Shown here one piece after another: positions 1,727 to 50,762 of a stretch of DNA of 64,000 bases. Position 1 is the stretch's first letter. Every line of letters begins with the position of its first letter. Source of the DNA: Diplonema papillatum (lineage: Eukaryota; Euglenozoa; Diplonemea; Diplonemida; Diplonemidae); assembly GCA_030068145.1 (NCBI GenBank), contig JAPJBO010000169.1, positions 186,001 through 250,000 of the forward strand, given 5' to 3'. The translations under genes and the position numbers were made by a program. Below the pieces are notes generated by a model that saw nothing but the letters and a program-made list of their open reading frames with translations, was not told the DNA's origin and made no database searches.

Positions 1727-4700
1727 GCTTCGTCGTTAGATCGACATGTCGCTGTCGTCCGCATCTTCGCCACCCACTTCGGTCAGGGTTGCAGGGTCAG
1801 CTGGCGGGAGACACCGGGGGTCCGTGTGCCGGCGTTCGGCGGGAAGCGGCAGCGGGGGCGTTCCGGGGGCGCGGAAGGCGTGCGTGTCACTATTCGCGAC
1901 GACCCAGCCGCCGCCGTGGAGCCGGAGCCAGGCGCCGGACTCCTCGGCGATGTGCACAATCGACCGGTCCGGCAGCGCCGAGACCACGGGCGCCGCGTGG
2001 GCCGGCGCCGCGTGGATCGGGGCACCCGACGGGTCCAGGCAGGCCAGCACTTTTTCGCACAGCACCAGCCGCCTGCCCCGCGCCTCCGGCGGCGCCGGCT
2101 GGCACGCCGCCACTGGCACCACCCACGTCCCGACGCCTTCCGCGCTCAGCAGCACCTTTTCCCGCGGCCCACTCGCTCTGCGCAATTCGCTTCACGAAGT
2201 GCGTCTCTCACCTAGTATCGGAATCACGATCGTGCATCCTCTTTCTCCGATTTTCTTTGCGTCTCTCTTCGAGCAAGCGCCCGCGATAACGACGTTCGGC
2301 ACGCGGAGGTCCCGACGCCTTCAGCGATCAGCAGCACCTTTCCTACTACCCTGTCGCTTTATTTTTCTAACGGGAAGACGCCTCGGATCCGTAGCTTATC
2401 CACTTGCCCTGCGAAACGGGCTTCACGACGCAGCGCGTTTCTCACCTAATAATAATATTGGACTAACTACTGTGCATCATTCTCCGGTTGTCTCCGCTTC
2501 TCTCTTCCAGCGAAGCGCCCGCGATAACGATATGCCCACGCCTCCTCGGGCTTCGTCGTTAGATCGACATGTCGCTGTCGTCCGCATCTTCGCCACCCAC
2601 TTCGGTCAGGGTTGCAGGGTCAGCTGGCGGGAGACACCGGGGGTCCGTGTGCCGGCGTTCGGCGGGAAGCGGCAGCGGGGGCGTTCCGGGGGCGCGGAAG
2701 GCGTGCGTGTCACTATTCGCGACGACCCAGCCGCCGCCGTGGAGCCGGAGCCAGGCGCCGGACTCCTCGGCGATGTGCACAATCGACCGGTCCGGCAGCG
2801 CCGAGACCACGGGCGCCGCGTGGGCCGGCGCCGCGTGGATCGGGGCACCCGACGGGTCCAGGCAGGCCAGCACTTTTTCGCACAGCACCAGCCGCCTGCC
2901 CCGCGCCTCCGGCGGCGCCGGCTGGCACGCCGCCACTGGCACCACCCACGTCCCGACGCCTTCCGCGCTCAGCAGCACCTTTTCCCGCGGCCCACTCGCT
3001 CTGCGCAATTCGCTTCACGAAGTGCGTCTCTCACCTAGTATCGGAATCACGATCGTGCATCCTCTTTCTCCGATTTTCTTTGCGTCTCTCTTCGAGCAAG
3101 CGCCCGCGATAACGACGTTCGGCACGCGGAGGTCCCGACGCCTTCAGCGATCAGCAGCACCTTTCCTACTACCCTGTCGCTTTATTTTTCTAACGGGAAG
3201 ACGCCTCGGATCCGTAGCTTATCCACTTGCCCTGCGAAACGGGCTTCACGACGCAGCGCGTTTCTCACCTAATAATAATATTGGACTAACTACTGTGCAT
3301 CATTCTCCGGTTGTCTCCGCTTCTCTCTTCCAGCGAAGCGCCCGCGATAACGATATGCCCACGCCTCCTCGGGCTTCGTCGTTAGATCGACATGTCGCTG
3401 TCGTCCGCATCTTCGCCACCCACTTCGGTCAGGGTTGCAGGGTCAGCTGGCGGGAGACACCGGGGGTCCGTGTGCCGGCGTTCGGCGGGAAGCGGCAGCG
3501 GGGGCGTTCCGGGGGCGCGGAAGGCGTGCGTGTCACTATTCGCGACGACCCAGCCGCCGCCGTGGAGCCGGAGCCAGGCGCCGGACTCCTCGGCGATGTG
3601 CACAATCGACCGGTCCGGCAGCGCCGAGACCACGGGCGCCGCGTGGGCCGGCGCCGCGTGGATCGGGGCACCCGACGGGTCCAGGCAGGCCAGCACTTTT
3701 TCGCACAGCACCAGCCGCCTGCCCCGCGCCTCCGGCGGCGCCGGCTGGCACGCCGCCACTGGCACCACCCACGTCCCGACGCCTTCCGCGCTCAGCAGCA
3801 CCTTTTCCCGCGGCCCACTCGCTCTGCGCAATTCGCTTCACGAAGTGCGTCTCTCACCTAGTATCGGAATCACGATCGTGCATCCTCTTTCTCCGATTTT
3901 CTTTGCGTCTCTCTTCGAGCAAGCGCCCGCGATAACGACGTTCGGCACGCGGAGGTCCCGACGCCTTCAGCGATCAGCAGCACCTTTCCTACTACCCTGT
4001 CGCTTTATTTTTCTAACGGGAAGACGCCTCGGATCCGTAGCTTATCCACTTGCCCTGCGAAACGGGCTTCACGACGCAGCGCGTTTCTCACCTAATAATA
4101 ATATTGGACTAACTACTGTGCATCATTCTCCGGTTGTCTCCGCTTCTCTCTTCCAGCGAAGCGCCCGCGATAACGATATGCCCACGCCTCCTCGGGCTTC
4201 GTCGTTAGATCGACATGTCGCTGTCGTCCGCATCTTCGCCACCCACTTCGGTCAGGGTTGCAGGGTCAGCTGGCGGGAGACACCGGGGGTCCGTGTGCCG
4301 GCGTTCGGCGGGAAGCGGCAGCGGGGGCGTTCCGGGGGCGCGGAAGGCGTGCGTGTCACTATTCGCGACGACCCAGCCGCCGCCGTGGAGCCGGAGCCAG
4401 GCGCCGGACTCCTCGGCGATGTGCACAATCGACCGGTCCGGCAGCGCCGAGACCACGGGCGCCGCGTGGGCCGGCGCCGCGTGGATCGGGGCACCCGACG
4501 GGTCCAGGCAGGCCAGCACTTTTTCGCACAGCACCAGCCGCCTGCCCCGCGCCTCCGGCGGCGCCGGCTGGCACGCCGCCACTGGCACCACCCACGTCCC
4601 GACGCCTTCCGCGCTCAGCAGCACCTTTTCCCGCGGCCCACTCGCTCTGCGCAATTCGCTTCACGAAGTGCGTCTCTCACCTAGTATCGGAATCACGATC

Positions 4701-5447
4701 GTGCATCCTCTTTCTCCGATTTTCTTTGCGTCTCTCTTCGAGCAAGCGCCCGCGATAACGACGTTCGGCACGCGGAGGTCCCGACGCCTTCAGCGATCAG
4801 CAGCACCTTTCCTACTACCCTGTCGCTTTATTTTTCTAACGGGAAGACGCCTCGGATCCGTAGCTTATCCACTTGCCCTGCGAAACGGGCTTCACGACGC
4901 AGCGCGTTTCTCACCTAATAATAATATTGGACTAACTACTGTGCATCATTCTCCGGTTGTCTCCGCTTCTCTCTTCCAGCGAAGCGCCCGCGATAACGAT
5001 ATGCCCACGCCTCCTCGGGCTTCGTCGTTAGATCGACATGTCGCTGTCGTCCGCATCTTCGCCACCCACTTCGGTCAGGGTTGCAGGGTCAGCTGGCGGG
5101 AGACACCGGGGGTCCGTGTGCCGGCGTTCGGCGGGAAGCGGCAGCGGGGGCGTTCCGGGGGCGCGGAAGGCGTGCGTGTCACTATTCGCGACGACCCAGC
5201 CGCCGCCGTGGAGCCGGAGCCAGGCGCCGGACTCCTCGGCGATGTGCACAATCGACCGGTCCGGCAGCGCCGAGACCACGGGCGCCGCGTGGGCCGGCGC
5301 CGCGTGGATCGGGGCACCCGACGGGTCCAGGCAGGCCAGCACTTTTTCGCACAGTACCAGCCGCCTGCCCCGCGCCTCCGGCGGCGCCGGCTGGCACGCC
5401 GCCACCGGCACCACCCACGTCCCGACGCCTTCCGCGCTCAGCAGCAC
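1727..5447 (-). repeat. 823-bp tandem array of the 3' coding end of the SAM gene
   Basis: Four near-identical 823-bp units (about 1,736-2,558, 2,559-3,381, 3,382-4,204 and 4,205-5,027) are followed by a fifth partial match, 5,028-5,447, which is the real C-terminal coding end of the minus-strand gene above. Each unit repeats the last roughly 140 codons and the stop, then adds about 390 bases of other sequence. That sequence itself holds a diverged second copy of the unit's own splice-like and coding segments. The copies carry GGGAAAAGG where the gene has GGGAAAGG, a 1-base shift, and diverge just upstream of it. The long plus-strand frames through the array are antisense shadows. Confidence 0.92.
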
Positions 5448-8400
5448 CTTTCCCGCCGCCCGGTCGCTCTTCGACACCCGCTTCACGACGCAGCGCTTTC
5501 CGCAGCAACCCGCCATGTTCGGGTCCCAGCCGAGCCGCCTGTCCGCCAGGCACAGCCGCTTCACCTCCTCCGCGTCGTTGCGCACGACCACGTGCGAACC
5601 GACGTCCAGCGTGTCGACATCCACGCTGCACACGGACCCCCCCGGGGGGGCGCAGGGGGCGGGGGGGGCCGCGGAAAGGGGGTTGGCGGCGGCCGGAGCG
5701 CGGCGGGGGGGCAGTCCGAAGAGCTCGACGACCTCGGCGTGCGACCGCGGGCGGAGGATCTTGAGCAGGTCCGCGAGGAACTTGCGGAGCTTCCCGGCGG
5801 AGCAGGCCGTGCGCAGGCTCCGCGCGCACGAGGCCAGGGTAGGGTCGGCCATGTTCATCGCCACTCCGTACGCCCGCAGCAGGTTGAGCGACCGGACCGG
5901 CAGCTGCTCTCTGCCGGATGGGGATGCCGAGGAGGGTCCTGCCGGGGCGAGTCTCTGCAGGAGCACCTGCAGCACTTTTTCGGCGATGTCCTGGTGGTCC
6001 TGGACGAGGGCGGCGAGGAGGCCTAATTCGACGGGGTCGGACGCTGGCGGGTGCTGCTGGGGGGGAGGGGATGGGCTTGCGGGGGGTTCGGGCGGGGGTG
6101 TGTCGCTCAGAGCGACGGCGACCGGGGGCGGCGAAGGGGTGCGGGCGGCTTCGTGGAGGATGTCGGAGAGGCCGTAGACCTGGACGTAGACCGAGAGCGC
6201 CTGCGGGTGCAGCGGCGCGGTGGCAGACGAGGCCAGCGGGCCGATGCCTTCGCAGACGCGGAACGTGTCGCGGACGAAGCGCTGGCAGCGGTGGGGCGGC
6301 GGCAGCTGCGTCAGCGCGCGCGCCGCCGTCGCGATGGTTCCGTCGGTCTGGCACGACAGACCTGCGGGGATTGGGGGGGAAAATGTTTCTTGGGTTTGAA
6401 GAGCGCGTGGTGCTTGCACCACTGAGGCCAGGTTATTTAACCGCGGATTTAGTGAAGGATTGTTCAGGAAACGGTCGCGAGCGAAACCCGACCAGGTAAC
6501 GGGGGGGGGGGGGGGGGGGGGGGGTTTTGTTGTTGGTGCTGGTTTGTGGGATAAGGTGGTTTTTTTTGCGGTGGTCTCCGCTGGTCTGGTAGTCCGTGCT
6601 ACCTCCTTTCTTTTACACTCGTTCTCTTTTCTACTCACTACTGTACGTCCTCTTTCACTCTTTTGCTCTCTTTGGCTAGCCAAAAAAAGAAAAGGGACTG
6701 GGGGGGTCGTTGTTATTGGTGCTGGTTTTGAGGGATAAGGAAAAGGTAAGAAACCTTTTTTGCAGTGGCCTCCGCTGGTCTGGTAGTTTGTGCTACCTCC
6801 ATTATTTCACACTCGTTCTCTTCAGGCGAGCTCTGTTCACGGGCTAGTGTTAGTCATAAGACGTCGCCCTTGGGAGAGTCAACGATGATGAGGATGAGGT
6901 CAAACTGGTCACTTCCAGGTCAAGTTTTGTTGCCGCTCGCATTTGCGGTGCGGACTCTTTCGGCCGTTTTGGCTGTTGGCTGCACATTGAGAGCACGTTA
7001 GTGCAGGCGACATGAAGGCCAAGCCCCGTTCATGGGATGCGATTGAGTTCGTCGGGCCTACGCTTGCACGCACCTCCTCTCAATGCGAGCTTTCTCATCC
7101 CTAAAACGGATGATGTTCCAGCAGCTGACATGTATTAGCAAACAGAGTTACCATTGTTACCCAACATGGCCTACGCTTGCACGCACCTCCTCTCAATGCG
7201 AGCTTTCTCATCCCTAAAACGGATGATGTTCCAGCAGCTGACATGTATTAGCAAACAGAGTTACCATTGTTACCCAACATGGCCTGCGCTTGCACGTATC
7301 GCCCTTCCTCCCCACTCATTGCGAATGTGTTCGTGGTGGTTGCGGCAAAATCGACCCCAAAAGGAGTCCGCACCGCGAAAGCGGAGACAGTCGCTGGGCG
7401 TGGAAATGACCACAGCCAGTTGACTTCATCCTCGGCTACGTTGCCCCTTCGGACGGACGACTTCTCAAGATGCACTACCACTCGTAACACTCGTGACAAC
7501 GATTCTCGGAGGTATAGGTGACGACGGGGTGTTGGAAACCCAACGTGTTGCAAACGCTGCTGGAGATCACTAGCCTTCAACAGAGCTGCGTGTTCGAGGT
7601 CCCGCAAAAAGTCCGAAGAATGTGGGAGAGAGAAGAGAGAAGAGACTGGATACCGTACGACCGAAGCAGCGTGACGGCGGAGGAGGACAGCGGTTGGTGA
7701 AGGACGTCGTTCGAGTCGCACAGCGACTGGGAGGAGACGGCAGCTTCGGCGCGCGCCGTGTGGCTCTTGCCCGCGAGGCCGAAGAGCAGGCGGGTGAGGA
7801 TGGCCTCGAGCCCGTCGATCGCACCGGGCGCGCCGCCGCACAGGAACTTCGTGAAGCTGGCCACCGACACGCGCTCGCCGCCGACCGCGCGCTTCAGCTG
7901 CCGCACCGCCGCCCGCTGCTGGTCGTCCGTCAGCGAGACGTCCGGGCTCACCCGCAGGTTGTACCGCGCCCGCCGCTCGCACGACCAGTCCGACGTCGAA
8001 TTGTCACTCCCCGTCGTCGACCGAGGAGTCGTCGCCTCAGACGCATTCCGGACATGCACACTCGCACTGGTATTCAACGACGGCGACGGGGGAGACCCGA
8101 AGCAGGTGAGCGGCGGTGACAACGGCGAAAGGGGGCCGACCAACGCGCTCGACGTCAGCCCGGCCGAAAGACTCTGCGACAGCGACCGAGGGCTGTCCTC
8201 CTCGTGGTGCTGGCAGGGCGGGTTGCCCGGGTCGGGGACGCGGTACCGCCGGCGGAGTGCGGTGAGCTCGCCCCACAGGATCTTCCGGTCCAAGTAGCTG
8301 ACGATCGACAGCTCGTCCCGCAGGTCCTCCTTCGCGATCGCGACCAGCGCCCGGCCGTCGACCCGGTTCCGCCGGAAGCTGCCCTGCAGCTGCCCCAGCT

Positions 8401-8470
8401 CGCACGCCTGCAGCCACGCGCAGCAGTCGTCGGTCGACCAAGTGTCCAGCGCGTCTCCGCCCGTGCCCAT
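5028..8470 (-). CDS. SAM-domain protein with a C-terminal Mind bomb-like SH3 domain, two exons
   Basis: Exons are 8470-7654 and 6361-5028 (716 residues). The donor is ACG|GTATCC and the acceptor CCCCGCAG|GTCTG. The split glycine codon joins in phase, and the join completes a helical motif (LLRSYG, residues 268-273) that recurs as LLRAYG at 433-438, which independently supports it. Residues 8-76 form a SAM domain (WSTDDCCAWL start, LDRKIL end), usually a protein-protein interaction module. Two related helical segments follow, separated by a Pro/Ser-rich linker. Residues 525-596 resemble the Mind bomb repeat (VGSHVVV..D..EVKRL, GWDPNM, W.VP). The tail is acidic (DADDSDMSI). No RING or catalytic domain is seen, so a scaffold role is inferred. 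I start at ATG 8470. Reading straight through 6362-6683 instead would place intronic repeat sequence in the protein. Confidence 0.8.
6371..6524. mobile_element. Truncated copy of the 39-kb repeat ending in a G24 run
   Basis: Lies within the intron of the SAM gene. About 130 bases match the start of the repeat triplicated at 39.3-40.98 kb (GTTTCTTGGGTTTGAAGAGC to CCCGACCAGGTAACG). The match stops at GGTAAC and is replaced by 24 consecutive G residues, which suggests truncation at a slippage-prone homopolymer. Confidence 0.8.
6525..6835. repeat. Diverged tandem duplication in intron
   Basis: About 120 bases from 6,525 recur from 6,711 (GTTGTT..GGTGCTGGTTT, TCCGCTGGTCTGGTAGT, ACACTCGTTCTCTT) with substitutions and an insertion. 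Intronic, with no coding signal. Confidence 0.65.
7056..7300. repeat. 113-bp tandem repeat in intron
   Basis: Two full units (7,056-7,168 and 7,169-7,281) and the start of a third at 7,282. Each opens with GCCTACGCTTGCACG and includes CCAGCAGCTGACATGTATTA. Inside the SAM gene intron. Confidence 0.85.
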
Positions 8471-8540
8471 CGCCAAGGCGCTGCCTTCTTCGCGGCCCGG
8501 CTTTTCGAGTGGGGGGCAGGTCCCTCGGCAGGTATATCTT

Positions 8541-35494: not shown

Positions 35495-37909
35495 TCAGAG
35501 GTATCCCGAGTGTGCCACGTCACAGAACACCTGTTTGTTGCCTCTGTCGAGTCCCTCAGCGACTTTCATGAGGATCTTGTCGGAAGAGTCGCGAATCTTG
35601 CTGCGGAGGGCCGCCGAGTCGCCTTCGTCGAATATCGCCCAGTAGTCCGCCGACCAGCCGAACTCCATCTCCTCGACGGGGTCGTTCTCGCACCTCGCCA
35701 AGAACGGCCGGGCAAACCGCTTGCTCTCGTCCAGCGACTGCAGCCGGACCTGGTACAGCGTCACCAACTCGCAGACCTCGAGATGGCTGCTGCCCACCTC
35801 CCACTTTTCGACGGGCCGCGTCCGGAGCTTGAGCTGCGGGTCCGACTCGAAGACGGGCAAACAGGGGCAGTACAGTGCGGACACCTCGAGCCGCGCGGCG
35901 GCGGCGGCGACGTGGGACGAGAGCCGGACGCCTTCTCCGAAGACGGTCAGGAAGCTCTGACCGGCGCCTCCGACGGGGCCCATGAACACGCTGCTCGTGC
36001 ACGCGCCGATGTGCGCGGCGCATTGGGTGGGCCGGGCCGAGAGGTCCTTGTGCAGGAGGTTCATGAACCGGAACGAGCTCTCGACGTGGGTCGCGCTCCT
36101 GACTTGCGTGTTCCAGCCGACGGCCACGCAGCCCCCGAGCAGCGCGAACACCGTCCCGTCGCTGCGAGCCGCGGCTGTGATGGTGCGGGTTAGGATGTCG
36201 TCCATCGCGAACTGCAACCCGGCAGCCTCCACGCAGATCCGGGGTTTCACCTCGACGAGCGCCACCGTGGCTTGCGCGATCCTTTCCAGCCTCACGGGCC
36301 GCTCGGATCTCTTGTCCGACCGTGAAGAACGGCTGGACCTGGGCCGGCCGGAGCCGACCAGGTCTGCTCCGAGCGACGCTTTGGGCCTCGAACTGATGGT
36401 CACAGACTTGAACGCGGTGTGTTCGCCGCCGTCGTTCTCACCACTCGAGAAGCGCTGGCTCAGGCTCGCGGGGTAGAGGAGCATCACGTCCACCGCCGCC
36501 GCCCCCTTGAGCTCGACCACTCCGGCGGAGACCGCGACGGTCGGCAGCCGGTTGCTGGCGGAAACCGCGTTCCAGCTCTCCTCCGACAGTGCCACGGCGC
36601 CCGGCATGCACGCGTTCTTGAGCCGCGCGGCTACCGCGACGGCGGGGCCGGCGTAATCGAGGCGGTTGGTGGCCTCGTTCAGCTGCACCTGCACGTCGCC
36701 GTGCTGGATCCCGACGCGGACGCGCAGGCCCTTCCAGCAGCCGCCCGACGCGCACTGCGGGAGGTCCTCTATAGCCGCGGGCCACGCCGCCTCGAAGAGG
36801 CGCAGCTGGGCCTGCAGCCCGAACGCGACGGCGGCCGACAGCTTTTCGAACGCGACCATGAACGAGTCGCCGGAAGTCTTCACCTCGTAGCCGTGCGCCG
36901 ACGAGATCACGCTGCGGAGCACCCGGTTGTGCACTTGAACGGCCTTCCGCATCGCCTCAGCGCACGTCTCCCACGTCAAACTCGCCGAGCAGACGTCGGT
37001 GAAGACAACGGCAGCCCGGTGGGACGCAATCCCAGGCGCATGCGCCATGTCGTGGGGCGGGCTGCCGCAGCCGGGGAGCGCCGCGTCCGGAAGGAACGGC
37101 CGGCACGCGAACAGCGACTGCAGCAGGGCCTCGAGCGCGGCGGCCAGCGGCCGGGCCAGGCGGGGCTGGCCCTCGGAGAGCTTCGCGTCGGCGGCCTCCA
37201 GGTCGAAGGTGGCGGCGGACTGGATGACGGCGCGGGTTATCTCGACGGTTCGAGCGTTCGCCACGGCCTCGCCGGAGACCCGCCGCAGCAGCGACCCCGT
37301 CAACGCATAGTTCAAGAAGAGAATCAGCAGGGCAAGCCCTCCCGAGGCGAAGGATCGGGCTCCCAAGGGGCACGGTGGTGCGTCGCATGAGTTCCGCTCC
37401 TTGAGCGCTTCCTTCGCGAGCAGGCCGATCGGGGTGTCGTACAACCCCCAGCGGTACCCGTCTTCGGCTGTCAGGACGACGATCCACAGCGCGGAGACGG
37501 CGGCGAAGGCGCGGCCGCAGCGCATCGGGTTGCCGGCTACCAAAACCGCGTTGAGGATGATCAAAAAGCAGGGCCACGTCCTCGACCGCTGCGCCGCCGC
37601 CTGGAACCAGTCGTGAACCATCGCGGTCGCGAGGGCGATGCCGAAGTATATCGCGACGTGCTGCGCATTCGCGGCCCGGGACACCAGGATCCGCGTGGCC
37701 ATGAGCGCGGACGCGACGGCCAGCACCAGCGAAGTGACCATCCCCAGGACGTGGTCCTCCGCCACGTAGTACACCGTGGCCACCGGCGTGATCCCCAGCG
37801 CAGCGGCGCTGAACAGCAGGATCATAGCCTTCGAGAGCCGGTCGCCCTCCGTGTCACCCTCCGCGGCCGCCAGGTACAGCAGCTGCTGCAGGTCGGGCAG
37901 GCACCCCAT
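35495..37909 (-). CDS. Membrane class III adenylate/guanylate cyclase with two cyclase domains
   Basis: Single long exon, 804 residues from ATG 37,909 to the stop at 35,495. About six membrane segments fall between residues 28 and 206. Cyclase domain 1 (about 295-480) has both metal aspartates (FTD, D305; SGDSF, D348) and a kinetoplastid-like core (YEVKTSGDSFMVA, then WKGLRVRVGIQHG after a loop). It would convert ATP or GTP to the cyclic nucleotide at a membrane. The usual catalytic Asn is Ala425 (in DYAGPAVAVAAR), while Arg429 is kept. Domain 2 (about 547-684) lacks both metal aspartates (Glu553; Gly in LLGGC) and has Arg662 and His666 where Asn and Arg normally lie. A Ser/Arg-rich linker separates them. 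Activity is therefore doubtful unless a partner supplies the missing residues. No Venus flytrap ectodomain is present, unlike trypanosome receptors. Confidence 0.88.
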   Translation of the reverse strand: MGCLPDLQQLLYLAAAEGDTEGDRLSKAMILLFSAAALGITPVATVYYVAEDHVLGMVTSLVLAVASALMATRILVSRAANAQHVAIYFGIALATAMVHDWFQAAAQRSRTWPCFLIILNAVLVAGNPMRCGRAFAAVSALWIVVLTAEDGYRWGLYDTPIGLLAKEALKERNSCDAPPCPLGARSFASGGLALLILFLNYALTGSLLRRVSGEAVANARTVEITRAVIQSAATFDLEAADAKLSEGQPRLARPLAAALEALLQSLFACRPFLPDAALPGCGSPPHDMAHAPGIASHRAAVVFTDVCSASLTWETCAEAMRKAVQVHNRVLRSVISSAHGYEVKTSGDSFMVAFEKLSAAVAFGLQAQLRLFEAAWPAAIEDLPQCASGGCWKGLRVRVGIQHGDVQVQLNEATNRLDYAGPAVAVAARLKNACMPGAVALSEESWNAVSASNRLPTVAVSAGVVELKGAAAVDVMLLYPASLSQRFSSGENDGGEHTAFKSVTISSRPKASLGADLVGSGRPRSSRSSRSDKRSERPVRLERIAQATVALVEVKPRICVEAAGLQFAMDDILTRTITAAARSDGTVFALLGGCVAVGWNTQVRSATHVESSFRFMNLLHKDLSARPTQCAAHIGACTSSVFMGPVGGAGQSFLTVFGEGVRLSSHVAAAAARLEVSALYCPCLPVFESDPQLKLRTRPVEKWEVGSSHLEVCELVTLYQVRLQSLDESKRFARPFLARCENDPVEEMEFGWSADYWAIFDEGDSAALRSKIRDSSDKILMKVAEGLDRGNKQVFCDVAHSGYL

Positions 37910-38097
37910 TGCCGCGCGTCCGTGTATTAGTGTTGTGTTTCCGACGATGCCGTATGGGCGTACAGACTGTGGGTTGCCGACAACCAACCTCGGTTGATGT
38001 GCAGTCTGGTGTCTCTGTTCTTTTTACTTTATTTTGTTTTATGGATATGGTTCGTGTTTTGTTGTGTTTTGCTCTTTTCCTTTTTTTTTTTTTTTTT

Positions 38098-42054: not shown

Positions 42055-43353
42055 TGAGCCCCCCCTAGGGCTATGTAGGATGGAAACGTTGGAAACGTTT
42101 CCGTTTCCGTTTCCGTTTCCGTTTCCTTCTTTTTGGCGGTGGATGGAAACGCCGTTTCTTTTCAAAAGAAACGGCTGGTATGCCACTAGTATACTGGCTG
42201 AAGGTCCGACCGGAAATGTGTTCCGAACGGCGGACCCCGCAATCCAGTGGGAAACCATGGACAAGGAGGCTCCGAAAAGGAGGGAGGAAAGAAGCATAAG
42301 AGTTGCGACCGCGTGGAGCAGACGCAACCACACGCATCCGGTTGTGATGACTTTGAGATCTGCAGCTCTTTACACCAATGGCTGTGGCGACGATGCTCTG
42401 TTATGCGAGGCCGTTGGCCAACGCGCTGAAGACGATCGGGAAAGCACATCCGCTTCCAATAATAGACTCTACAGATACGATCGTTCAGCGCCACAGGCTA
42501 CAAGACCGGGGTTTTTCGGCGGCGTAAGACAAAGAGGGAGTGCAATCAGCATCAGGAGGTGAGAAGGGCACACGTATGCCGGGGCAATGTTGAACCCGCC
42601 AGAAAAGCGATGGCCACGCAGCAACGTGTGCGTTAAACATCACTTGCCACAGTGCACCTTGCATACGACGACGGGTAGCAACCGTCACCGGGAGGGGCGC
42701 CATCGGGCGGTGTTGTCGGAGCATAGACAACGACGGCAGGAAGAACCACCAACAATGCAGAAGAGGACGGCAGATTCAAAAAGCCCCACTCACATGAGAA
42801 CGTGGGTTGGAAGCAGCAGAAGACGAAGTGGTAGGCACAGAGTGGAATCTGGTGTCAGAAGACATCCACACGAGACGACATTCTGCATCACTAGCTTGTG
42901 GTTACCAATTTGCTCGTGCCAGATCGCCGACGAAAGAAATGCGTAGTTTTGTTTGTGAAAGCGGTGAGCACCGGCGACTGCTCTGCACAAACGAGACCGC
43001 GACGCCACACAAGAAGGGGCCGAGCCAAGTCGAAGAACAGCCCAGGAAGGGCCCTGAAGAGTCAGAGAGCCCGCCAGAAGACGGAGGAAGAGAAGTGCCC
43101 GCTGGTAGATCAAAAGAAGAAGGTGATCCCGCCCTCTGAAAGGAAAGCCAAAATTTGGCTGGAAACGGACACCCGACGGACACACAGAAGGACCCGCGAA
43201 GTGGTATCCTATAGGACCCCTCAGCATGAGGAGCCTTCCGGCGTTTCTTTTAAAAGAAACGGAAACGTTTCCGTTTCCGTTTCCGTTTCCGTTTCCATAT
43301 TTCGAAAAAACTAAAAGAAACGGCGTTTCCATCCAACTTAGCCCTAGGGGGCA
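42055..43353. mobile_element. TTTCCG-rich DNA element with TIRs and 7-bp target duplication
   Basis: The left end has CCCCCTAGGGCTATGTAGG then ATGGAAACG. The right end is the inverse, CGTTTCCATCC then TTAGCCCTAGGGGG. Both ends carry sub-terminal GTTTCCGTTTCCGTTTCC runs and a GCCGTTTCTTTT block. CCGCTGG flanks both sides (42,048-42,054 and 43,354-43,360). It is 1,299 bp with no transposase recognised, so probably non-autonomous. Confidence 0.85.
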
Positions 43354-43835: not shown

Positions 43836-44724
43836 CAAATACAATAGGTACTCGAATACAATATTATTTCGGAATACAATAGGTACTCGAATACAATATT
43901 ATTTCGGAATACAATATGGTGTGATCCATATAGTACGGTGAAACCATGGTAGAACTACGGAAGAACTACGGAAAACTGGAAAGGGGTGTCCAAAAACTTT
44001 TTTTTTCCGGCGCTCAGGATTTTTCCAGGAACCCGGGTTTCGGCTAGGGGGTAATGCTTTTCAGACGGGGTTTCCGCACCTTTTCATGCAGCCTTTTGAT
44101 GACATTTGAGCACTGGGAGCGAAAGAAATGTGAAAACGGGGGTTCGCCAAGAGGAAATGAGAAGTGAACGGAGAAGTGAAGGAGGCTGACGATGTTGTTC
44201 GACCAGGCTCAACCTTTGGCATCCGCGCATCCTGGACGTGACTGAGCTAGCTTCGCTGCCACCTTCTTGGTCCATGCGAATAAGATTCCTTGCATTTCGC
44301 GCTGCTTCGTGTTCTTGTTTCGCTGCTTCACTCCTTCTCCTTTTCTTGCCTAGCACAGTGGGTGGTCCGTCTTCTAGGCCCCCGTCAAAAGAATCCAGGT
44401 GAGCGGCCCTCCCCTCTCTTCCCCTCTTGGGAAAGTCAGGAGCAGCACTTGAACTCTACTTGAGTTGTGACAAAAAGATGACAGGGGTATTTGGATTGCG
44501 GTGGCTGCTGGGAAGTTTCCTACCACACTTCTCGGCACCTGGCCCAGAGCAAAGACGCATTTTTTGTTTTTGTGTGCGTGTGTGTTGCACAGAGAAGAAC
44601 TTCGGAGAGCCCTGGTTCAGAGGTTGCAGACATTTGTAGCACGCAACTCTTCAGGTGCCACACCAAAGCTGACCCCCCCAAAATGTTGCTATCACGGCAC
44701 GTCACCTGCTTGTTTTCCTGCCGT

Positions 44725-45615
44725 ATGGATGCCATTCTTGACGAGGCAGACGTACCACCGCCCCCGAAAAAGGCCGCTCCGAAGAAAGCCGCACCGAAGA
44801 ATACAAAGGTGGCCTCAATGTCAGCAGCCGCAAAACAGAAAGCTGAGATGGCGAAGCTGCTTGCTACAGGCAAGGTCCTTGCCTACAGTGAAGCCTTGCT
44901 GTGCCCCGACACCTTCGCGGGGTTTCGTGAGAACGTGTTGCTTCCTCATTTGAAGCAGGTCGGAGTGAAACTGGCGAAGAAGTACAAGACGGACACTTTC
45001 TTTGCTGACATGGAGTGTCATGCAGAAAGGCTTTTTTTTAAGAAGAAAAGCGAAATACCCGGGGAAGAAGGAACGGTGACCGAGCAGGAAGTGGGAGACG
45101 ACCTCGGCCTCAGCATCGCAATTACGGAAAGTCGACCCGTCTTTGTGGATGTACGCCTCACTCTCTCAGGGAAGGCAATGGGCGAAATTCGCAAGTTCCT
45201 GGCGGTGGAGCACCCGACCCTCCATGACAATGTCATGGCTGCACAGGCCAAAAAGGCCACGTCGATCGAAAAGGATCTGACAGACAGCGTCGTTGAATAC
45301 CTCGGCACTGGCCCTGACATGCACGGCATCTTAATCCAAGGATGCAAGATGACCTGCATATGCGGGTACGTGTCGATTACCGCGAGTGATCGGTTGAGCA
45401 ACCCCAGGAAGTTCTTCGCGCACTTTCTGCGATGTTACCCGTTGCACCAAAAGGTCTCGAAGAAGACAAGGACAAAGCTTCACGAAGAGCTGAAGGGGGC
45501 CAGAGAGAAGAACAAGACGATGACTGCGAAACGAAAGGTTCCCCCAATTGACCCCAAACAAACTCGTCTGGCTTTCGAGCTGAAGGAAACAGCTTACAAA
45601 AGACAAAGAACGTGA
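44725..45615 (+). CDS. Transposon ORF1, candidate DNA-binding protein
   Basis: 296 residues from ATG 44,725; ATG 44,683 in the same frame would give 310, and the frame is open further upstream. It has an acidic start then a Lys/Ala/Pro-rich stretch (PPPPKKAAPKKAAPKN), a mixed helical body, and a Cys/His cluster near the C-terminus (GCKMTCICGYVSI.. FFAHFLRC) that could bind zinc. It ends in a strongly basic tail (TAYKRQRT). It lies inside the AAGGGGTGTCC termini, upstream of and co-oriented with ORF2. I do not recognise the family. A DNA-binding accessory role is inferred from position and the zinc-finger-like residues. Confidence 0.7.
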   Translation: MDAILDEADVPPPPKKAAPKKAAPKNTKVASMSAAAKQKAEMAKLLATGKVLAYSEALLCPDTFAGFRENVLLPHLKQVGVKLAKKYKTDTFFADMECHAERLFFKKKSEIPGEEGTVTEQEVGDDLGLSIAITESRPVFVDVRLTLSGKAMGEIRKFLAVEHPTLHDNVMAAQAKKATSIEKDLTDSVVEYLGTGPDMHGILIQGCKMTCICGYVSITASDRLSNPRKFFAHFLRCYPLHQKVSKKTRTKLHEELKGAREKNKTMTAKRKVPPIDPKQTRLAFELKETAYKRQRT

Positions 45616-46252
45616 GGCTTTTGAACGCGAGGTCTTTCTCCTTTATTGTTATCATATCCCCGTTCATTTGAAATGGGCCAAGTGGTGTTTTCCAGCTGTT
45701 TTTTGCCTTTGAGTGTTCCCATGGAAAATTGTTGAAATGGGAGAGCGCGAACAACTGACTGCCCATTGACGGTGGTGTCCAATGTTGGTTGAGGTTAGAA
45801 TGCAGAATATCTGTAGCGATAGCCTGCATTAGGCATTGGATGACTACCTCTTTGATCGTACCGTGCCGTGCTTCTGACTTGCACTCATTCGAAACATCGT
45901 CTTCGCGCGGTCGCTTCGCGACCCTTCCTTTCCTTGCCGGTTTGCACGCTTCTGCGACCCTTGCCTTCGCTTTCACGGGCGGCGCTGGGCACTTCTTCTT
46001 CCGTTGGGGGGTTGTCGTCTTTCGTCTTCGCTTTACCGGCGCTGATGCCTTCCTTGCTGGTGACGGTGTAATTGGCGGGGCACGTATCGGTGTAGCACAC
46101 GCGCACAAGTCGTTGCGTGCCTGGTTGTTGTAGCAAACCAATGCAGGAAATACAATGGTGGTTCTCTTCGTACACTTTGTCACACCCGATGGGGCGCGGA
46201 GCGATGCATTTAAGTGTACGAGCGAAAGCATGGCTGATATCCGCAACAGCAC
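45377..46252 (-). CDS. Possible third, minus-strand ORF of the transposon
   Basis: Between ORF1 and ORF2 the minus strand encodes a very basic segment (PQRKKKCPAPPVKAKA.. ARKGRVAKRPREDD) that continues to QAIATDILHSNL. Both parts recur in diverged copies at 172-425 and 21,704-21,976 with some synonymous or conservative changes. A different minus frame (45,885-46,472) holds a Cys-rich, zinc-finger-like segment (CDKVYEENHHCISCIG, VCYTDTCPANY). The gene may be spliced or frameshifted. Frame boundaries are uncertain and the edges overlap ORF1 and ORF2 antisense. Confidence 0.35.
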   Translation of the reverse strand: MLLRISAMLSLVHLNASLRAPSGVTKCTKRTTIVFPALVCYNNQARNDLCACATPIRAPPITPSPARKASAPVKRRRKTTTPQRKKKCPAPPVKAKARVAEACKPARKGRVAKRPREDDVSNECKSEARHGTIKEVVIQCLMQAIATDILHSNLNQHWTPPSMGSQLFALSHFNNFPWEHSKAKNSWKTPLGPFQMNGDMITIKEKDLAFKSLTFFVFCKLFPSARKPDEFVWGQLGEPFVSQSSSCSSLWPPSALREALSLSSSRPFGATGNIAESARRTSWGCSTDHSR

Positions 46253-48515
46253 CGCCGCGATTGGTTACATTCCCTCTGCAAGGTATTTGCGGGTTGCGAC
46301 GGGCCCACCGTTGACTGTCCCGCTGGCTGAGTGCCCGGTTATTGCGGCGAACCAATTCGGGGTACTGGAGGACGGATACTCTGTTCTGGTTGAGTGCGAG
46401 AGACGTTATGTCGCTGGCAGCCAGGAAGCAGACGACACACGGTTGCGCACCCTCGTAGATGATCTCATGCACGAGCGGGTAAGCATCAGGCGTATTCCTG
46501 CAGTGCTGGAAAAGACGTGTGGCGTAAAGGTGTCTCGTCGGCGCGTCGAAGAGATCTGGGCCTTGAACCTAGTCTCGCGAGACATGGAGTTCTTGAAGGA
46601 AACCCAAAACTGCAATGTCGCCCTGCAGTTCGATACTGGGCCACGAGACCCGGCTTCGCAATGGGCCGGTGGCCACTTTACAGCGACATGGAAAAACGAT
46701 GAAGGAAGAATCCTGTGGCACCACCTCGACGTCCACATCACATGCCTTAAGCACGGCGATGCTGTCAATGATATCATCCAGAAGATGATTCAGTACTTTG
46801 CGAAGTTGACAGACGAACTGATTGCGTTGAATGTACTGGACGAGGAAGCCTCATTTGGGCAAGACCGTTTTTGTGTCGTGTATGTCGATAGGGGTGCTGC
46901 TCTAGGTGGATTCGCGTGCACGCGGGTCTTTGAAGTTGTCCACCGCATGCACCGGGTTGCCACAGCAGCGATCTCGTCGCTTCGCTGTGAGAAGGAGACG
47001 AAGGCTGTATGCCAGGCCGCAAATTACGTCAGTCAGTCTCCAGAGTTTCAGGAATGGCTTGCCGCCGAATACAGCATTCAAGAGGTCAAGGGGTTCTTGT
47101 GGCAGCGCGCCACACTCGGCAGGTTTGGCACTGCATGGGCTGCTGCGTTCTGCATGAGTGCCATTGTTGGAAACTCGGGAAAGTCGGTACTTGAGTTGCT
47201 GCTCGTGTTCTTCGGTAAGTTCCCTGAGATGGTATCGCAGTCATCTGCGAAGACAAACGTCCTGCACCGCTTAGGGAAGCAAGATGCTCAGACTACAGTT
47301 CGCAGGCTGGGTCTAGGCTTCGCCCTTGTTGTGTACCCTTTCTTCAGAGCTCTGTGGGGGTTTGCTGATGGAAATCACACAAACGACACATTCACGGTTG
47401 GCATCGTGAAATCACTGTTTTCAAGTTTGGCCATCGTTGCGATGAAAGCAGACGCTGCGAGAATGGTGCGACGTAGGGAAACTGTGCTGGGTGTTCCTCA
47501 GGAATGTCGGGTCACACCTGAGACGCTGTCGTGGAAGACAACCATACCCAAGGAATTCACCCCCGATCCCGAAGCAGTGACGCAACTGAACGCCGACCTT
47601 CCTGACGGTGTCGTACGTCACGGAATTGGAAAGTACTATGGAGTTCAAGGCACTTCGTCTCGGGCGATCACCTCACTTTCCGACTGCAACACAAGTGACG
47701 TGGCTTTTCTGAAAGGCTTGCTGCACCACACAGCCTGCGGTTTCATATTGGAAGTACAAAGGTTTTGCACCCAGGAAGACCCCTCTGTTCCGCGCCCTGT
47801 AGCGCTTGGCCCATCCCTGGTCGAAGGCACGGTCGGAAAGCTGAAGCGAGAAATAGCGGAACAGGGAAACCGGCGGATTCGAGACATTTGCTGTCGCGCC
47901 AAGTTGTGCACCGCCGAGCGGCACCTCCCCATCCACGGTGAGCCGTCACTTCGGGTGCAAAGATGCCTCGAAAATACGGTGGCGTCAGCAATCGAAAGCA
48001 TCCATGATCGCAAAGTACGCCTGGGGCGCTTGAAGTTGGACTACCTCGCCAAGAAAGAGAAGATAGCCGATAAAGCTCGCAGGAGAAAGCAACGACGGGA
48101 GGCGTACCGCCAAAATGTGGAACTGCGGTTCGATTATGACACCAACTGGCCGAAGAAGCTCCTCATCGAGCAAGCTGACGCTCGCCGCCTCACCGCGTCA
48201 CAGAAGATGAACAAGAAGGACGTGGTCTCCCGCATTCAAGGGTGCGATGCAGGAAGTACGAACGCGGAGCTTCTTGCTTTGGCAAAGAAGCGCGGCATCA
48301 GCAGAGTTGGTCCTTCGAGCACAACACCCACCCTGCTCAAGAAACTGCAAGAGTATGACGACAAGTTGCCGCTGCCATCATCGGTGAAAGACTCCATGTT
48401 ACCTGTCGATGATGGCAACGAGTCTGTGTCGGAGGATGATATTGAAGACGGACACTTAGAGAGCGATGGAGACAGCGACAACAGCGACCGCCCTAAACGA
48501 AGACGTCAAACATGA
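46155..48515 (+). CDS. Transposon ORF2, candidate DDE-type transposase of unrecognised family
   Basis: 786 residues from ATG 46,155; ATG 46,230 would give 761. An N-terminal region with a helix-turn-helix-like segment (RIPAVLEKTCGVKVSRRRVE) is followed by two candidate acidic strands, FDTGPRD and CVVYVDRGAALGG, spaced about 110 residues apart as in DDE/RNase H-fold transposases. Hydrophobic and Cys-containing helices follow (GLLHHTACGFILEVQRF), then a long basic coiled coil (KKEKIADKARRRKQRREAYR) and a SAP-like segment (TNAELLALAKKRGIS.. TPTLLKKLQEY). The tail is very acidic, then RPKRRRQT. It is intact, so the element may be recent or active. The third catalytic acid cannot be assigned by eye. 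Confidence 0.75.
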   Translation: MVVLFVHFVTPDGARSDAFKCTSESMADIRNSTAAIGYIPSARYLRVATGPPLTVPLAECPVIAANQFGVLEDGYSVLVECERRYVAGSQEADDTRLRTLVDDLMHERVSIRRIPAVLEKTCGVKVSRRRVEEIWALNLVSRDMEFLKETQNCNVALQFDTGPRDPASQWAGGHFTATWKNDEGRILWHHLDVHITCLKHGDAVNDIIQKMIQYFAKLTDELIALNVLDEEASFGQDRFCVVYVDRGAALGGFACTRVFEVVHRMHRVATAAISSLRCEKETKAVCQAANYVSQSPEFQEWLAAEYSIQEVKGFLWQRATLGRFGTAWAAAFCMSAIVGNSGKSVLELLLVFFGKFPEMVSQSSAKTNVLHRLGKQDAQTTVRRLGLGFALVVYPFFRALWGFADGNHTNDTFTVGIVKSLFSSLAIVAMKADAARMVRRRETVLGVPQECRVTPETLSWKTTIPKEFTPDPEAVTQLNADLPDGVVRHGIGKYYGVQGTSSRAITSLSDCNTSDVAFLKGLLHHTACGFILEVQRFCTQEDPSVPRPVALGPSLVEGTVGKLKREIAEQGNRRIRDICCRAKLCTAERHLPIHGEPSLRVQRCLENTVASAIESIHDRKVRLGRLKLDYLAKKEKIADKARRRKQRREAYRQNVELRFDYDTNWPKKLLIEQADARRLTASQKMNKKDVVSRIQGCDAGSTNAELLALAKKRGISRVGPSSTTPTLLKKLQEYDDKLPLPSSVKDSMLPVDDGNESVSEDDIEDGHLESDGDSDNSDRPKRRRQT

Positions 48516-49211
48516 CATCGTTGATGCAGGTACAGATATTCTGTGACATAACCAGTACAATCTAACTGACAGCACACTTTGCTGGGGCTCGATTTCGGGA
48601 TGGGTAGCTGTCAATTTTTTGTCTCGTTTCTTTCTTTTTTGGTTGCAGGAGAGGCAGATTTTTGGTGCTCCAGGCATGCAGAGACCAAACCGACAGCCCT
48701 GCGCAAGTAGTTGGGTAAAAAGCGAACTTTCACTATAAGAATAATTTTTGGACACCCCTTAGTACGGCAAGACTACGGAAGAAGTACGGAAGAACTACGG
48801 AAAACTGGAGGGCGGATCACACCATAATAGGTACTCGAACACAATATTATTTCGGAATACAGTAGGTACTCGAATACAATATTATTTCGGAATACAATAG
48901 GTACGCTGAAATGGGGGTTTCGGTGAGCATTGTTTCGGAATACAATACTATTTGTCCCCAGTGGGGTTTGCAGGGGGTTCCACGGGCTTCCTCTCGCGAG
49001 AGCACCTTCTTTTGCAGAGTTATAGTTCGCTTGAGAATCCGGGATTTTAGAGTCTCCGGGTGGGTTTTCGAGAGAAGTTCAATGTGGAGCACTCCTGAAG
49101 CCGAAACTTCAATCATACTACTTGATTTCGCTATCTGTGGCATTTTCCTCAGGTCAGGGATCAATAATTCCTAAGGCCCGCACCCAAACAAAAAGAAAGG
49201 GCTCGCTTTTT

Positions 49212-49367: not shown

Positions 49368-50762
49368 CCCATTCTCGAACACTATTTAACTTTTTGCCCA
49401 TTCTCGAACACTCGCTAACTTTTTGCCCATTCTCGGTAACTTTGTGCCCATTCTCGAACACTATTTAACTTTTTGCCCATTCTCGAACATTCCAGTTTTT
49501 GTGGTGAAAATGTCACTTCCCCGAGACATTTGCCTCAAGTTTCACCGCGAGAACAGCTGCGTTCACTGATTCGAAGACGGTACCCTTGCTAACTTCAGGC
49601 CGCAGCCTCTTCGGCATCTACACTCGGTTCTTGGTTGCTTCAAGCTCTTCTACACGTGACGGTGGTGTGCGAGCTACCCTGTTTAAAAACCCGGCACAGA
49701 CTTCACTGAGTTTGCTCGTCTTGCTTGCAAATTGCGCGGCGGCCATTGAGTGACCTTAGTTCACTGACCTACACCAGGAGAAGCAGCTTGCAAACTTTGC
49801 AGCAAAGTGATTCAAAAAATTTGACCGAAATTTTTTGGGTCAAAAATTTTCGGTCAATTTTTGGGTCAAAATTTTTGGGTCGAAAATTTAAGACAAAAAT
49901 TTTGGGTCAAAAATTTAGGACAAATTTTTTGGGTCAAAATTTTTGGTCAAAAATTCGGGGTCCAATTTTTTTGGTCAATTTTTTTTCAGAGTTGAAGTGG
50001 CGGTTACACTTGGCACATGGCTGCATGATAGCAGGAGAATGGCTCCTGCCATGCGCCCTGGCGGCTCGCCGGCAATTCCAGTCTCTCTCTCAGCCTGCCA
50101 GCCTGCGGCAGGGAGGACAAGATCCAGTCACCATCCGCCAGCTCCTGATTATTTTCAGACGACTGGCACTTTTTCTTTGCAGCTTCTACTGTAAGAGTAG
50201 CATCACTCAAATCTTGATTGGCTGCGGCGTTACTTACCGCTCTGAGTCTCTCCCGCTCCTCCTCTGGAGTCATTCGTGACGTCGCGCCCGTCGCTGGTTA
50301 CTACTCGTGGTAAAACAGTGGCTCTGATTCTGAAGAGGTTTCGGCACAGAATTAGGAAGCGCTACAAGTAGAACGGGCTGGTCACTCGCGCATACCTGAA
50401 TTATGCACGAATCTGTGTTTAGAAAACCGTTTACCCGTAGTCTGCGGTGTCAATGACCCAGTGCGCAACCAGGATACCGAGCCGGGACGCAGCAGCCAAC
50501 CACAATGCTGGCACCTTGTTCGAGGAACGGATCCGACGGAAATCGGAATCGGAAATGGCGAACCCAAAAATGGCTGGGATTTTTTGGATGTATGGGTGGT
50601 GAGTTCGAATCCCACCCTGGGCAATTTTCAATGTTCGAGAATGGGCAAAAAGTTAGGCGACTGTTCGAGAATGGGCAAAAAGTTAAAAAGTGTTCGAGAA
50701 TGGGCAAAAAGTTAGCGAGTGTTCGAGAATGGGCAAAAAGTTAAATTGTGTTCGAGAATGGG
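49368..50762. mobile_element. Fold-back element with arrays of GTTCGAGAATGGGC arms
   Basis: The left arm (49,368-49,492) has five copies of CCCATTCTCG spaced by TTTAACTTTTTG. The right arm (50,628-50,762) has five inverted copies of GTTCGAGAATGGGCAAAAAG. About 1.1 kb separates them, including an AT-rich tract (49,806-49,990) of repeated TTTTTGGGTCAAAA. No transposase seen; no clear target duplication. Confidence 0.85.
49806..49990. repeat. AT-rich TTTTTGGGTCAAAA tandem tract
   Basis: Roughly ten degenerate 15-20-bp units (AAAATTTTTTGGGTCA and variants) inside the fold-back element. Very low complexity. Confidence 0.85.

Follow-up and report, generated by a model that had tools for sequence, protein, structure and literature searches.

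A two-gene DNA transposon with a transposase of unclassified lineage in Diplonema papillatum

A 64,000-nucleotide stretch of the Diplonema papillatum genome (contig JAPJBO010000169.1 of assembly GCA_030068145.1, positions 186,001 to 250,000 of the forward strand; here termed the window, to which all coordinates refer) contains one complete transposon. It is a copy of family A, one of three families (A, B and C) found in this genome, and carries two long open reading frames (ORFs), ORF1 and ORF2, between short terminal inverted repeats (TIRs). An earlier first-pass annotation, made from the letters of the window, had claimed a transposon with two intact ORFs and an unrecognised transposase, and this was borne out against Pfam, NCBIfam, PHROGs and PDB sequences. 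The features of the element and its immediate surroundings are, from left to right:

43838-43916, no strand: host 35-base-pair (bp) tandem repeat of the left flank, outside the element
43912-43916, no strand: left target-site copy CAATA, within the host 35-bp satellite
43917-48824, plus strand: complete transposon, family A copy, 4908 bp, delimited by alignment with copies L021 and L022
43917-43927, plus strand: left TIR TGGTGTGATCC, 11 bp, perfect
43931-43980, plus strand: left subterminal stretch of ACTACGG repeats
43981-44004, plus strand: left arm of the inner inverted repeat (earlier taken for the TIR), with counterparts in families B and C
44683-45615, plus strand: ORF1, 310 amino acids, with a conserved CxC...FxxHxxxC cluster
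46155-48515, plus strand: ORF2, 786 amino acids, probable DDE (Asp, Asp, Glu) transposase, with D160, D245, E557, H263/H266 and H524/C528
48737-48760, minus strand: right arm of the inner inverted repeat
48760-48809, plus strand: right subterminal stretch of ACTACGG repeats, oriented like those of the left end
48814-48824, minus strand: right TIR GGATCACACCA, inverse of the left, 11 bp, perfect
48825-48829, no strand: right target-site copy TAATA, 4/5 bases as in the left
48825-48904, no strand: host 35-bp tandem repeat of the right flank, outside the element

The boundaries were fixed by a genome search for further copies, as had been proposed in the first-pass annotation. In BLAST comparisons the region is 99.2 and 99.4% identical over 4.9 kb to L021 and L022, respectively; identity to both ends at the same bases on either side, and the flanks outside are unrelated. 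The extent originally given, 43838-48905, had taken in the host tandem repeat on both sides. A genome scan found the right-flank sequence at 40 other scored places. When the two flanks were joined computationally as an empty-site test, the satellite array of L041 ran uninterrupted across the modelled junction at 83% identity; L041 is the only one of six flank stretches used for this test, the aligned pieces of the other five lying inside the tandem repeat and not being decisive.

Both ends are built in an order common to families A, B and C, in which a short TIR is followed by a block of repeats with the same orientation at both ends, and this in turn by an inverted repeat. The TIRs of all three families begin with TGGTGTG and are perfect over 7 to 11 bp. 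The subterminal repeat unit is ACTACGG in A and B and ACAAACCCGG in C, and the inner inverted repeat starts with a run of G and GTC(C) and continues into a T-rich run (GGGGTGTCC in A and B, GGGGGGTC in C). The sequence AAGGGGTGTCC, previously put forward as the TIR, is the inner of the two inverted repeats; it begins 64 bp inside the left end and was rejected as a terminus. Both the inner inverted repeat and the direct repeats of the subterminal stretches probably serve as binding sites.

Identical 5-bp direct repeats lie directly outside the TIRs in 15 of the 19 copies that have both ends, and these exact duplications have no evident common sequence. The count was made on 21 loci (the window and 20 fetched ones), from which L027, whose termini were not found, and L031, without an exact left end, were excluded; a spurious second row of L032 was ignored. 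An exact match is lacking in four copies: that of the window, with CAATA against TAATA, L022, L024 and L030. In L028, a family B copy, about 1.6 kb of extra sequence lies near the right end (oriented positions 6495-8108), and the outer 5-bp duplication is still perfect.

The transposon group is real, complete and recently amplified in this genome, which comprises 271 Mb in 2,910 contigs. A genome scan for light-harvesting proteins (PF00504) was negative, which speaks against a photosynthetic alga as the host, although genes split by introns can escape such a scan. With the window ORF2 as query, 81 matching stretches were found and 57 of 685 candidates were scored, and the long open frames fall into the three groups. 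In A, the frames of the window and of C1400 encode 786 amino acids and that of C1789 is shortened to 731; in C, C14 encodes 790 and C419 750 amino acids, C2 is divergent near the C-terminus and C1731 has one in-frame stop. Identity to A is 43-44% for C and 37% for B. Family B is the abundant one: all 58 scored matches to its protein (from 1,563 first-look candidates, its own place counted) are full length at 768 amino acids and stop-free, and across 4,067-4,071 bp, 13 B loci show between 0 and 4 base differences from a reference copy. Exact matches to the 28 bases at the start of B occur at 93 places, those to the reversed control pattern at 0.

Family A presents a different balance. The first 28 bases of its left end occur at 81 places with at most 3 mismatches (62 exact; reversed control pattern 0), against few intact A frames genome-wide, which suggests that many A copies are deleted or non-autonomous. 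Several A relatives have frames with internal stops, and among three near-identical A copies fetched both ORFs are intact only in that of the window. Additional distant families may exist in the genome, because B copies mostly or wholly filled the scored lists of the ORF2 scans with the B and C1 proteins. No relative was confirmed in viral contigs or in GTDB genome contigs by short peptide patterns, which distant relatives can escape.

ORF2 is 750-790 amino acids long in the four proteins aligned (A, B, C1 and C2), which have 28 invariant D, E, H or C positions. The best catalytic candidates in the sequence are D160, D245 and E557. D160 lies in a predicted strand (155-163), a hydrophobic stretch precedes D245, and E557 is part of LGPSLxEG; position is the only basis for the choice of this Glu, to which E533 is an alternative. 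Two further pairs are invariant in all four proteins: H263xxH266, 18-21 residues after D245, and H524xxxC528, 29-33 residues before E557. ORF2 had no significant match in Pfam, NCBIfam, PHROGs or PDB sequences; no Pfam transposase model was matched, nor did the ORF2 profile find a PDB transposase chain. The weak library rows, all below curated cut-offs where such exist, were judged to be chance matches: XRN1_D2_D3 (E 0.18, A), SAP (E 0.13, C1), halocin_C8_dom (E 0.094), PDB rows at E 0.38-1.4 and a ribosomal protein at E 1.6. A Foldseek comparison of the first ORF2 model with PDB gave 853 rows at E ≤ 10 and none at E ≤ 0.001, the top rows being unrelated to transposases. Both models are of low confidence; their predicted insertion domain most resembles that of Hermes, a hAT transposase, and the second model is poorer in the RNase-H part. 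The first-pass annotation had named a clear match to a characterised transposase family as grounds for giving up its claim; none appeared at the sequence level, and at the level of fold these low-confidence models come nearest to Hermes.

The frame of ORF1 opens at TTG 44491 (374 amino acids), and the alignment starts at ATG 44683. The proteins are 310-356 amino acids long, and the Cys/His cluster noticed earlier is upheld by C225, C227, H247 and C251 (window numbering), which are invariant in all four. ORF1 has no Pfam match above cut-off, and neither ORF matches Pfam BED; the weak ORF1 rows VMAP-M2 (E 0.052, C1), MPM1 (E 0.04, B) and phrog_11828 (E 0.36) were judged to be chance. ORF1 is probably a DNA-binding accessory protein, zinc-finger-like. 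Between families, third codon positions differ more than second positions in both genes (64-69% against 25-44% in ORF2; 63-71% against 31-55% in ORF1). This pattern fits protein-coding genes under selection, although in ORF1 the first positions of A or C against B differ nearly as much as the third ones, at 61-62%. A 291-amino-acid minus-strand frame between the ORFs (45377-46252) was set aside as chance, having no counterpart of at least 180 amino acids in the listed family B and C loci.

TIRs, target duplications of fixed length and an element-encoded protein with conserved D, D and E are the general hallmarks of DDE cut-and-paste transposition, and all are found here at the level of sequence. 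We read the element as an autonomous cut-and-paste DNA transposon with a DDE transposase in ORF2, a separate zinc-finger-like protein in ORF1 and 5-bp target duplications, and give this reading a probability of about 0.8. By its sequence, the ORF2 lineage is no recognisable member of any family in the four libraries searched. Since the low-confidence models come nearest to Hermes, the 'undescribed system' of the first-pass annotation is best taken for a lineage that is unclassified but mechanistically of a known kind, rather than for an unknown kind of mobile element.

The element could be a very divergent hAT (for example within hAT5, with its 5-bp duplications) whose BED-like finger has moved to ORF1, in which case no separate superfamily would be needed; we regard this as possible, at somewhat less than even odds. 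Hermes is the top structural neighbour of both low-confidence ORF2 models, which place a predicted helical insertion after the Asp pair and before the Glu, as in the hAT enzymes Hermes and Kat1. The D / D / xxH / E order, the subterminal repeats and the short TIRs are also hAT-like, and 21 residues separate the second D from the His of xxH, against 20 in Hermes (H268, counted from what we take to be its second Asp, D248). The insertion domains of Hermes, RAG1, Tn5 and P-element are described as topologically similar (PMC8230255), and work on Kat1 shows which roles subterminal repeats and the CXXH motif have in an enzyme of the hAT type (PMC4763223). In contrast, the motif after the second Asp is H(2)H in 4/4 proteins here and C(2)H in hAT, the termini here are TGGTG, and the finger lies in a separate ORF, whereas hAT transposases carry a BED finger at their N-terminus. 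Target duplications of hAT are usually 8 bp, so that those seen here are compatible only with the hAT5 exception; duplication length does not in itself rule hAT out, since PMC12730594 records hAT groups with 5-bp duplications.

In the same genome, 150 scored places of 851 candidates exceed the Pfam Dimer_Tnp_hAT (PF05699) cut-off, none of which overlaps a listed ORF2 place when compared by eye. Three fetched genome hATs match this model with E-values between 7e-10 and 7e-8, whereas none of the ORF2 proteins of A, B, C1 and C2 matches it at E ≤ 10. The silence of Pfam on the ORF2 group is therefore not due to a lack of recognisable hATs in the host. Profile comparison of ORF2 with the three genome hATs gave no match, and BLASTP of the B ORF2 with one of them gave E 1.1; however, two of these hATs also lack a BLASTP match to each other (best E 0.35), and so only the Pfam contrast is informative. 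The hAT features tested at the sequence level were not found.

It is unlikely that the element belongs to a known Repbase superfamily lacking a Pfam model. For the better-known of these superfamilies, duplication lengths and termini do not fit, and no recognisable account of such an element, nor any description with these features, was found in open-licence papers. The comparison covered Pfam, NCBIfam, PHROGs and PDB sequences, and among the superfamilies in the Repbase table are Novosib, Academ, Dada and Sola (PMC4455052).

Membership of the CACTA-Mirage-Chapaev-Transib/RAG1 clan appears quite unlikely. Transib target duplications are 5 bp long, as here, but Transib termini are CAC..., not TGGTG. 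According to PMC12730594, the clan has C(2)C followed by H(3-4)H in the interval from the second D to the E. Paired metal-ligand-like motifs stand at the same two places and in the same order in ORF2, where a Transib-like zinc site would have to be formed by H263, H266, H524 and C528; the residues are, however, H(2)H and H(3)C. The duplication length thus fits Transib and the motif does not. Among Pfam models and PDB chains, no sequence match to RAG1 or another transposase was found; RAG1, Transib and P-element do not stand among the structural matches listed, in which Hermes was the neighbour found.

The two-protein layout recalls PIF/Harbinger, which requires two separate element-encoded proteins, ORF1 and transposase (PMC2836001). 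The elements differ in that Pfam showed no shared domain, the Harbinger DDE domain included, that the stretch from the second D to the E is long here, and that the duplications are 5 bp against the canonical 3 bp given in PMC12730594. The nested arrangement first proposed, in which AAGGGGTGTCC would delimit an inner element lying within an outer one, is barely credible. The window does contain one inverted repeat inside another, but the nested reading fails because the layered ends are common to families A, B and C, with the inner repeat at the same relative place, and both repeats recur in the two other A copies, which sit at unrelated sites; this leaves a single element.

The transposon would work as a hAT-like or RAG-like cut-and-paste element. 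ORF2 would have an RNase-H-like core, with D160 at the predicted first strand, D245 after the would-be fourth strand and E557, interrupted by a Hermes-like helical insertion, with a helix-turn-helix ahead of the core and SAP-like helices behind it. The helix-turn-helix, possibly together with the SAP-like tail, would bind the ends, and ORF1 may act as a DNA-binding partner that binds the subterminal or inner repeats and aids pairing. The DDE core would then cut at the TGGTG...CACCA tips, and joining of the ends to staggered cuts 5 bp apart would yield the 5-bp duplications.

Elsewhere in the window, ORFs with the same beginning recur every 823 bp (1746, 2569, 3392, 4215, 5038), and 1746-6177 is therefore a tandem array of an approximately 823-bp unit, which overlaps a minus-strand frame at 5028-6683. 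Two other minus-strand frames encode a SAM-domain protein of 299 amino acids (7577-8476; Pfam SAM_1, E 5e-9) and an open 830-amino-acid frame with an adenylate/guanylate cyclase domain (35495-37987; Pfam Guanylate_cyc, E 7e-19). A six-base tandem repeat, CGTTTC, is present in 5.2 copies at 43266-43296, and frames with GNGNGN runs suggest that similar hexamers recur elsewhere in the window. Several tandem repeats of 13-40 bp, of the TTTTGGGTCAAAAA type, overlap one another at 49833-49985, roughly 1 kb downstream from the transposon.

When a new transposase lineage is missing from profile libraries, its transposons go unannotated and its proteins are mistaken for host genes. The ORF2 group could link the hAT and Transib/RAG1 lineages, because its motifs lie between both; if the insertion domain and the HxxH/HxxxC pair are truly of the kind they resemble, they would help to show how hAT-like and Transib/RAG-like transposases are related. 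The division between a finger protein and a catalytic protein would, if true, be a further example of two-protein DNA transposition beside PIF/Harbinger. With dozens of nearly identical intact copies, the group may still move in Diplonema papillatum, where direct testing is possible.
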